64,000 nucleotides of DNA from Hyphomicrobiales bacterium. GTDB taxonomy: Bacteria; Pseudomonadota; Alphaproteobacteria; Rhizobiales; Beijerinckiaceae. Positions 57,072 to 59,465 of the stretch are shown here, piece by piece (positions within the stretch are counted from its first letter, which is position 1; every line of letters starts with the position of its first letter). The notes beneath the pieces were generated by a model. That model saw nothing but the letters and a program-made list of their open reading frames with translations. It had not been told where the DNA came from and searched no databases. The stretch covers positions 1-64,000 of the forward strand of contig JAQGKD010000029.1 of NCBI GenBank assembly GCA_028290285.1, written 5' to 3'. A program made the translations under genes and the position numbers.

Positions 57072-57167
57072 TGAAACGTCTGCCAAAAACACTCTTGGTC
57101 TTGAACTGATCGTCGATGGACCCACCCACCGCGATCGGGCGTTAGCTATGTGACAGGGGGCACGTCA

Positions 57168-58343
57168 ATGTGGGCTTATGTTAGCGAGCTTCTGAATGCG
57201 GACAGCCTGTCGCCACATGGAATTTGCCTGCTGTGGCGGCCAGACCTGATCTGGACCCATGCGACATCGGACATGTTGATCGGTTTCTCCTATTTCTCCA
57301 TCCCGGTCGCGTTGGGCTATCTCGTGTCCAAGCGTCCGGATGTCAGTTTCAATTGGGTCATCTGGTGTTTTGCCGCCTTCATCCTAGCCTGCGGCACGAC
57401 GCATTTCCTGTCCATATGGACATTGTGGGTCCCTGACTACGGCCTTGAGGCCCTCGTCAAAGCCATCACCGCCGCTCTATCCGTCGCAACCGCCGTCTTG
57501 ATGTGGCCCCTTCTCGGCAAGGCGCTCGCATGGCCCTCGCCGGCGCAACTCGCGGCTGCGAACAGGGACCTGACTGCCCTCATCAAGGAACGGGATGAGG
57601 CGCTCGTCGCGCTGCGCCGGGAATCGATAGACCGCCAGAAGGCAGAGGAAATGCTGCGGCAAGCGCAGAAGATGGAAGCCATCGGGCAGTTGACCGGCGG
57701 CATCGCCCACGATTTCAACAATCTTCTGACGGTTGTGAGCATGAACCTGGACCGCCTGGAAGGCGCGCTGCGCACCCATGCGGACGCCGGGGTCACGCGG
57801 TCGGTCGCACATGCCCGGTCCGCCGCCGAAAAGGCAGCTGGCATCACCGCGCGCATGCTGTCCTTCGCTCGCATGGGGCAGGTCGATCCCAAGGCTCTCG
57901 ATGCCCGTGACGTTCTGAAAGATATGGAGCCACTCTTCCGCAATGCGGTCCAGAAGCCGCACGAACTGGTTTTCGATTTTGACATGAACCCATGTCCGGT
58001 CCACGTTGATCGGCAGCAATTCGAGAACGCCATCCTCAATCTCGCGATCAACGCGAGGGATGCGATTCCGAAGACGGGAATTGTCAAGATCACGGTCGTT
58101 GCGGAGCAGAAGATGATCGCAATCGGCGTTACGGACGATGGCGAAGGCATGCCCGAAAGCGTGCGCCAGCGAGTCTTCGAGCCATTTTTCACGACAAAGG
58201 ACGTTGGCAAGGGCTCGGGTCTTGGCCTCAGTCAGGTCTACGGCTTCGTCCAGCAGTCCGGCGGCCTCGTGGATATTGTCAGTGCGCCCGGTCAGGGCAC
58301 GGCAATCACCATCCGGCTTCCCAGGGCCGGGGCGGAAAAATGA
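57168..58343 (+). CDS. Sensor histidine kinase with ethylene-receptor-like membrane domain
   Basis: 391 residues. The first 120 or so form three membrane helices matching the ethylene-binding domain of plant ETR1 with a constant offset of ten residues. The matches are Asp35, Tyr42, Ile45, Pro46, Ile72, Cys75 and His79, equivalent to ETR1 Asp25, Tyr32, Ile35, Pro36, Ile62, Cys65 and His69. In ETR1 the Cys and His hold Cu(I). A short coiled coil (about 127-168) leads to the kinase: H-box GGIAHDFNNLL (His181), N-box NLAINARD, G1 DDGEGMP and G2 GKGSGLGLSQVYG. There is no GAF domain. The ATG at 57168 follows GGGGG; an in-frame GTG at 57150 is possible. It is coupled (ATGA) to the response regulator. 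Confidence 0.9.
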   Translation: MWAYVSELLNADSLSPHGICLLWRPDLIWTHATSDMLIGFSYFSIPVALGYLVSKRPDVSFNWVIWCFAAFILACGTTHFLSIWTLWVPDYGLEALVKAITAALSVATAVLMWPLLGKALAWPSPAQLAAANRDLTALIKERDEALVALRRESIDRQKAEEMLRQAQKMEAIGQLTGGIAHDFNNLLTVVSMNLDRLEGALRTHADAGVTRSVAHARSAAEKAAGITARMLSFARMGQVDPKALDARDVLKDMEPLFRNAVQKPHELVFDFDMNPCPVHVDRQQFENAILNLAINARDAIPKTGIVKITVVAEQKMIAIGVTDDGEGMPESVRQRVFEPFFTTKDVGKGSGLGLSQVYGFVQQSGGLVDIVSAPGQGTAITIRLPRAGAEK

Positions 58344-58720
58344 TCGACGCCACCCGGCCCGCCGCCCGCGCGCTTGTTGTCGAGGACGAAGAACTCGTCC
58401 GCGAAATCCTGATTTGGGCCTTCGAGGACCTGGGGTTCGAGGTGACGGTCGCGTCCAGTGGCGACGAGGCAGCTGGCATGTTCCGGTCCACCGCCCAATT
58501 CGACGTCCTTTTCACGGACATCCGTATGCCAGGCGCGATCGACGGCTGGACCCTGGCCGAGAAGGCCAGGGAGGTTTCCCCCGCCCTGCCCGTCATCTAT
58601 GCCAGCGGCTTCAGTTCCGAGCCGCCCCGGCAGGTCCCGCAAAGCGTCTTCCTCCAGAAGCCGCTCCGAACCGATGCATTGCGTCAGGCGTTGATCGCAC
58701 TCGGGATGCCTATTTCCTGA
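58340..58720 (+). CDS. Single-domain response regulator
   Basis: 126 residues of receiver fold only. Conserved residues are Asp15/Asp16-type acidic pair in VVEDEE, the phosphorylated Asp60 in FTDIRMPG, and Lys107 in LQKPLR. It overlaps the histidine kinase stop (ATGA), so it is the direct partner. With no DNA-binding domain it must signal through protein contacts, or pass phosphate on to another protein. Confidence 0.92.
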   Translation: MIDATRPAARALVVEDEELVREILIWAFEDLGFEVTVASSGDEAAGMFRSTAQFDVLFTDIRMPGAIDGWTLAEKAREVSPALPVIYASGFSSEPPRQVPQSVFLQKPLRTDALRQALIALGMPIS

Positions 58721-58748
58721 TCGAGGAAGCCTCGCCGAGGAGCTTCGC

Positions 58749-59465
58749 ATGACCCTGCAACTCTATTACTGGCCTGGCCTGCCGGGGCGTGGCGAATTCG
58801 TGCGTCTCGCCCTGGAACAGGCTGGCGCGCCCTATGTGGATCTGGTCCGCGACACGCCCAAGGGCATGGCCGCGCTCATGGAAATCATGGAGGATGAGGG
58901 GGCGACGCCGCCCTTCGCTCCGCCCTTCCTGAAAGATGGAAAGCATATCATCGGCCAGACCGCCGCGATCCTTTTACATCTGGGAGACACGCTCAACCTC
59001 ACGCCGCGCGATCCTTTCAAGCGAATCTGGGTCCACCAGATGCAACTCACCATCGTGGATGCGGTCGCCGAGGTGCACAATGTGCATCATCCCATTGCAG
59101 TCAGCGCGTATTACGAAGACCAGAAGCCGGAAGCCCGCCGCGCCGCGAAAGCGTTTCGCGACGAGCGGATCCCAAAGTTCCTCGGCTGGTTCGAGCGAAT
59201 TCTGGGCAATGACGAGCGCGGCGGAAAATGGCTTGCGGGTCGCTCCGTCAGTTATGCCGACCTATCGCTGTTTCACCTCGTGGAGGGCCTGCGTTACGCG
59301 TTCCCGAAGGCGATGAAACGACACCAGCCAGAGCTGCCTCGTGTCATGGCCCTCGCGGACGCGGTGCGGGATTTGCCCAATATTGCCGCCTATCTGAAAA
59401 GCCCGCGCCGCCTTGCCTTCAACGAGGACGGTATCTTCCGCCATTATCCAGAGCTGGACGGATGA
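58749..59465 (+). CDS. Glutathione S-transferase family protein
   Basis: 238 residues. The N-terminal thioredoxin-like domain starts LQLYYWPGLPGRGEFVRLAL, where Tyr7-like and Arg residues bind glutathione. IIGQTAAILLHLGD is the cis-proline/SNAIL-like segment (here GQTAAI). The helical C-terminal domain follows. It resembles sigma/alpha-like GSTs. A GAGGAG ribosome site precedes the ATG, 28 bases after the response regulator, so it may be co-transcribed with the sensor pair. The substrate is unknown. Confidence 0.87.
   Translation: MTLQLYYWPGLPGRGEFVRLALEQAGAPYVDLVRDTPKGMAALMEIMEDEGATPPFAPPFLKDGKHIIGQTAAILLHLGDTLNLTPRDPFKRIWVHQMQLTIVDAVAEVHNVHHPIAVSAYYEDQKPEARRAAKAFRDERIPKFLGWFERILGNDERGGKWLAGRSVSYADLSLFHLVEGLRYAFPKAMKRHQPELPRVMALADAVRDLPNIAAYLKSPRRLAFNEDGIFRHYPELDG

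Follow-up and report, generated by a model that had tools for sequence, protein, structure and literature searches.

A gene pair in a 64,000-nucleotide stretch of a Hyphomicrobiales bacterium contig (the whole stretch is referred to here as the window) raises the question of whether a histidine kinase with an ethylene-receptor-type sensor placed directly on its catalytic half can be a complete ethylene receptor and, if so, how the signal would pass from the membrane to the kinase and beyond. For the plant receptor ETR1, a 2019 paper presenting a model describes the route from ethylene perception in the membrane to the downstream signal as still elusive (PMC6586836). The original prediction of such a sensor on a kinase, coupled to a single-receiver regulator, was supported by domain matches. 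Our overall reading, which we consider probable, is of a minimal ethylene receptor that forms a two-gene cassette with the adjacent regulator and would signal through a coiled coil.

Gene anatomy and the predicted ethylene-binding site

The coordinates agreed with a 391-amino-acid kinase and a 126-amino-acid regulator coupled by ATGA and followed closely by a GST gene (Table 1). Searches with hmmscan against Pfam matched the N-terminal part of the kinase to PF25487, the ethylene receptor 1-like N-terminal domain, with an E value of 2.7e-38, scoring 130.6 bits where the cut-off is 27; with a score so far over the cut-off, the match of seven binding residues described below is not due to chance. 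The HATPase_c match (73.3 bits) was also over its cut-off. The HisKA match (E 3.1e-5, 24.4 bits) was below the Pfam cut-off of 26.9, and the placement of H181 despite this score rests on the AHDFNN motif and alignments. The order of matches was PF25487, HisKA and HATPase_c, with no Pfam match to PAS or GAF between the ethylene-binding domain (EBD) and HisKA, in agreement with the expectation of a sensor joined straight to the kinase without a GAF domain. The regulator was matched by Pfam as a receiver domain alone, with residues D16, D60 and K107 assigned by motif. The receiver and the kinase, the latter with H181 and its ATPase boxes, both look intact in their motifs.

Table 1. Positions in the window of the kinase-regulator pair, its domains and its surroundings
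Feature	Position	Strand	Basis or remark
EBD histidine kinase, 391 aa	57168..58343	+	ATG start, stop codon included; same start in L127 homologue (MWAYL...)
Ethylene-binding domain PF25487, residues 27-121, with D35, Y42, I45, P46, I72, C75, H79 and K98	57246..57530	+	
TM1, predicted helix 25-55 (D35, Y42, I45, P46)	57240..57332	+	AlphaFold2 model
TM2, predicted helix 62-87 (I72; C75 and H79 as putative Cu(I) ligands)	57351..57428	+	AlphaFold2 model
TM3, predicted helix 91-120 (K98)	57438..57527	+	AlphaFold2 model
Continuous predicted helix 125-204, from linker to first DHp helix	57540..57779	+	Model; heptad-stepped lengths in relatives
Phospho-acceptor His181, AHDFNN motif	57708..57710	+	HisKA match, alignments
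HATPase_c, residues 281-386	58008..58325	+	Pfam match
Response regulator of a single receiver domain, 126 aa, joined by ATGA; Asp60 as phospho-acceptor by motif	58340..58720	+	
AAA_27-to-GST interval containing the kinase-regulator pair	57072..58748	+	68 bases, gene-free, in G008:C676 (L249)
GST gene	58749-59465		Begins 28 bases past regulator

All seven residues critical for ethylene binding in ETR1 had been claimed for the kinase at an offset of +10, and all seven were found (Table 1), Tyr42 being the counterpart of ETR1 Y32; the offset is derived from ETR1 residue numbers. By helix geometry of the monomer, the binding residues of TM1 lie within 100 degrees of each other and those of TM2 within 60, each group thus being on a single face of its helix. 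The ETR1 ethylene-binding positions given in the literature consulted are D25, I35, P36, I62, C65 and H69 (PMC6586836, PMC11819568). Lysine 98 aligned with K98 of AzoEtr1, an ethylene receptor of Azospirillum brasilense, which has been equated with ETR1 K91 (PMC11819568). The set of relatives, searched with EBD, HK and REC profiles built from sequences collected in this analysis (some relatives were also run through Pfam), comprised 125 distinct EBD open reading frames, identical EBDs being counted once. The full set of residues (DYIPICH) was kept in 84 of the 125, and each of these 84 also had the TM3 lysine.

The first 130 residues of AzoEtr1 bind 14C-ethylene, the protein mediates ethylene responses, and its gene is overlapped by that of a single-receiver regulator, AzoRR-Etr1, characterised in 2025 (PMC11819568). 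A search of plasmid records yielded 19 with an EBD match, of which the seven top ranked were Azospirillum megaplasmids with 55-58% identity over all 131 residues. The EBD from the plasmid of strain Sp7 was 57.3% identical to that of the window over 131 amino acids, and its locus encodes, by Pfam, a 525-amino-acid EBD-PAS-kinase; length, architecture and strain agree with AzoEtr1 and hence make a proven receptor a close relative of the window kinase. The likeness extends to D35, H79 and K98, which carry the same numbers in both proteins, and to the overlapping regulator. AzoEtr1 differs in that a PAS domain separates its EBD from its kinase and in the motif AHEMSQP in place of AHDFNN; of the AzoEtr1-type layout, the window has the regulator overlap but lacks the PAS domain. 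A counterpart in layout was on plasmid p2 of Novosphingobium sp. ES2-1, typed as conjugative, where a PAS-less kinase (WP_230487955.1, 51% identical to that of the window) has an overlapping regulator (WP_039338037.1). With AzoEtr1/AzoRR-Etr1 and the PAS-less Novosphingobium pair, the kind of unit found in the window is already known, and the description of it as unstudied has to be amended; its difference from AzoEtr1 lies in the missing PAS domain.

Two further receptors were compared. SynEtr1 (Slr1212) of Synechocystis is likewise a histidine kinase with an EBD and signals to a response regulator but, in its published description, on which this comparison is based, is a dual receptor for ethylene and light whose regulator drives a small RNA, whereas no photosensory domain was matched in the window kinase. 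Arabidopsis ETR1 shares the seven binding residues, the Lys91 equivalent and a three-helix sensor; it has a GAF domain and is described as signalling mainly without its histidine kinase (PMC6586836, PMC11819568), in contrast to the direct two-component pair of the window.

These comparisons bear on the ligand. The Cu(I) site could sense a cue other than ethylene, such as copper, CO, a different small alkene or the state of the membrane, with ethylene binding perhaps possible but unphysiological. The conserved residues indicate a binding-competent site, and relatives occur on Novosphingobium plasmids from activated sludge and a lake and in a phage record. We nevertheless regard a non-ethylene cue as unlikely, given that all seven ETR1 residues and Lys98 are kept and that its close relative AzoEtr1 both binds the gas and mediates ethylene responses. 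The window kinase is thus read as probably a functional and complete ethylene receptor of minimal design, and ethylene, by kinship with a proven receptor, as its likely ligand.

Linker register and the proposed path from membrane to kinase

The spacing between the TM3 lysine and the phospho-histidine was counted in residues and classed modulo 7; 36 of the 125 open reading frames were left out of these counts as truncated at the end of the locus, of other kinase types or kinase-less. Among the first 32 kinases with the EBD directly attached (direct kinases), 18 fell in class 1, 9 in class 6 and 5 elsewhere. The register rule was noted at this point, before further genomes were searched. The enlarged set of 47 comprised 23 kinases in class 6 and 18 in class 1, with the other 6 elsewhere. 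All 22 direct kinases with the AHDFNN motif and intact binding residues were in class 6, with lengths of 62, 69, 76, 83 and 97 residues; the window kinase has 83 and the Novosphingobium ES2-1 kinase, in the same register, 69, two heptads fewer. Fourteen of these 22 came from searches made after the rule, and all 14, including the new lengths of 62 and 76, fitted it. Intact direct kinases of other types were mostly in class 1 (12 of 15, with 3 outside it), and the 10 direct kinases with altered or missing binding residues were spread over class 1 (n = 6), class 5 (n = 3) and class 6 (n = 1).

With each length counted once, the P values were 0.0004 for the AHDFNN kinases and 0.016 for the other types, values that are indicative only because lengths were treated as independent while the sequences are related; at 60% EBD identity the 22 AHDFNN sequences formed a single cluster, and at 70% they formed eight. 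A control of 29 intact receptors with spacings of at least 180 residues (a PAS or GAF domain was confirmed by Pfam for AzoEtr1 only) had 20 distinct lengths and a P value of 0.79, hence no preferred register. Without collapsing, 10 of these 29 were in class 1, and six of the 29 had the single length of 197, itself of class 1. The rule was missed by two of the 16 direct kinases that were found after it and whose histidine could be located: one (L229) has the first binding residue altered, and the other, a phage kinase (L254), has a spacing of 68 residues and all seven residues intact. These counts indicated that linker length in direct EBD kinases tends to step by sevens within a kinase type, with exceptions. 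Heptad-dependent linkers are documented for light-sensing kinases; a search of titles and the starts of abstracts, with bioRxiv and most subscription papers outside it, found no report of them in ethylene receptors among the papers listed.

Off-register EBD hybrid kinases with altered binding residues (DFTAVCR) were also observed at two loci (L189 and L204), which belong to two genomes of a single genus and resemble each other. These receptors have possibly turned to another ligand.

An AlphaFold2 monomer model of the window kinase, built on an alignment of 47 sequences of which 8 had a whole or partial EBD, had a mean pLDDT of 87.3 and a pTM of 0.59. The model predicted the three membrane helices listed in Table 1, a four-residue break and then an unbroken helix from residue 125 to 204 that contains His181. 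The best PDB match, by sequence as well as by fold, was CckA (5idj), and the best 50 of 611 Foldseek rows were all histidine-kinase or related two-component entries. A sequence search of the PDB detected no solved EBD structure, the lone match (E 0.53) being an endoglucanase. The unbroken predicted helix is in keeping with a signal that travels along a rigid coiled coil.

From the conserved residues and the kinship with AzoEtr1, Cys75 and His79 of the three-helix membrane domain would hold Cu(I) and the domain would bind ethylene; binding would shift TM3 of the receptor dimer. This movement would cross the short Pro-Ser-Pro break into the continuous coiled-coil helix entering the DHp domain and there, as the model and the heptad-stepped linkers suggest, alter the balance of kinase and phosphatase activities at His181, from which phosphate would pass to Asp60 of the adjacent regulator. 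The latter would most likely serve to relay the phosphate or to drain it, as a sink, and not as a DNA-binding output.

The regulator and the extent of the unit

Linkers of 83 residues in the family of the window occur with a separate receiver in six proteins and with a fused one in four. Among the receivers of AHDFNN kinases, the other eight separate ones were 40-64% identical to that of the window and 15 fused ones 30-39%; for the remaining five separate and two fused receivers, identity was 20-28%. Most loci of relatives were available with flanks of 1,500 bases, so a missing downstream regulator there does not prove its absence. Kinase and receiver distances were correlated in 14 split pairs (r = 0.90; 0 of 5,000 permutations) and in 17 fused proteins (r = 0.85), a correlation that common ancestry by itself would also produce.

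The single receiver may be a phosphate sink, in which case the true output would lie on a different route, for example through an Hpt protein as in CckA-type relays. The kinase half scored best with PRK13557 hybrid kinases and then with CckA in NCBIfam, and kinase and receiver resemble these families, with all scores far below the cut-offs; those proteins have another sensor, and the window kinase lacks a fused receiver. The CckA models NF046020 and NF046026 gave 208.9 and 180.3 bits against 1000, placing the kinase outside CckA proper. A regulator that consists of a receiver only, and relatives with a receiver fused to the same kind of kinase, argue in the same direction, the fused forms suggesting that a receiver of this kind is an intermediate rather than the final output. 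The ATGA coupling, the repeated split pairing and the distance correlation show an association of kinase and regulator without separating relay from sink. We regard the sink as a real but lesser possibility.

The original prediction had also mentioned the neighbouring GST gene, for which a functional meaning was not supported. A contig of a same-genus genome (G008, 69% complete; contig C676) carries AAA_27 (70% identity), GST (81%) and LLM (93%, for the portion that the contig covers) in the order of the window but without the kinase-regulator pair, and AAA_27 and GST are separated there by the short gap given in Table 1. In another member of the genus (G002), the pair lies elsewhere, with a kinase 66% identical to that of the window; it was observed directly behind a pst-phoU-phoB cluster (L127:5743-8132; gene names assigned by eye). 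Inclusion of GST in the sensor unit was rejected on these two counts: GST adjoins AAA_27 with or without the sensor and hence is outside the unit. We infer that the pair is a two-gene cassette separate from its neighbours. A gain in the lineage of the window is the simpler reading of this arrangement and is more likely than a loss in G008; no target-site repeats were evident at the junctions of the pair.

Distribution among bacteria, plasmids and phages

PF25487 was detected in 3 of 25 genomes of the genus of the window, and so is not a core function of the genus. In samples that overlap with each other, it was found in 20 of 119 genomes of the family, 54 of 347 of the order (47 above the cut-off), 28 of 385 of the class and 29 of 398 of the phylum. 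One genome of the same order has a homologue that shares 94.7% identity with its counterpart in Bradyrhizobium sp. AT1, which makes Hyphomicrobiales the probable order of the window. The EBD on the conjugative Novosphingobium plasmid described above was 58.8% identical to that of the window over 91%.

Some relatives depart from the two-gene form. Stand-alone EBD proteins of about 140 amino acids with all seven residues, in a chain without a kinase, were observed at two loci (L156:8693-9106 and L157:8391-8810), where separate kinase and receiver reading frames begin about 1.7 kb downstream of the EBD gene. In one genome (G100), a gene for an EBD, kinase and receiver in a single chain contains two TAG codons in frame (L132:7465-9264). 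These codons prompted the idea that TAG encodes Gln in this genome (L002/L132), which was rejected since formate-tetrahydrofolate ligase ends at TAG and rpoB has no internal stop; the genome uses TAG as a stop, and the gene is probably decaying.

This related gene, the patchy occurrence in the genus (3 of 25 genomes) and the empty site in the sister genome G008 are what would be expected if the pair in the window were a recently acquired, non-functional passenger between unrelated genes. The window copy, however, is free of stops, keeps its binding, kinase and receiver motifs and has 66% identity to one that lies elsewhere in another genome of the genus, all of which suggests selection, so that a passenger appears very improbable and a probably functional cassette is the reading retained.

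EBD genes were also observed in phage records. Jumbo-phage sequence in a record of 80 kb (IMG/VR 3300045107_000039) contains, at L254:5001-6469, the off-register EBD kinase mentioned above with an overlapping receiver; the kinase has 377 amino acids, a PF25487 match with an E value of 1.7e-26, and all seven residues plus the lysine. A second record (L255; IMG/VR 3300045256_000050, 245 kb), identical to the first over 10,369 bases, also has matches to terminase, to a portal protein (1.3e-67) and to a major head protein (9.1e-81). The Maribacter phages Molly_1 to Molly_5 encode a 289-amino-acid hypothetical protein (L121:3935-4804) that has an EBD (PF25487, E 1.5e-16) with the residues NYISICH and no kinase match, and its gene is directly upstream of an amidase gene and near a terminase gene. 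No relevant report of an ethylene receptor in a phage was found by title or start of abstract among the papers listed, again with bioRxiv and most subscription papers outside the search.

What is new here is the PAS-less form, the heptad-stepped linker and the patchy spread as a two-gene unit. Tentatively, and with less confidence than in the reading of the pair itself, ethylene sensing may circulate among bacteria, plasmids and even large phages as a two-gene plug-in, whose simplest form would be an EBD set straight on a kinase with a linker that changes by whole heptads within a kinase type. A receptor without a middle domain and with a simple rule of linker length makes the transmission of the ethylene signal testable by linker insertions, and the pair in the window illustrates how patchily bacteria hold a sensor for a plant gas.
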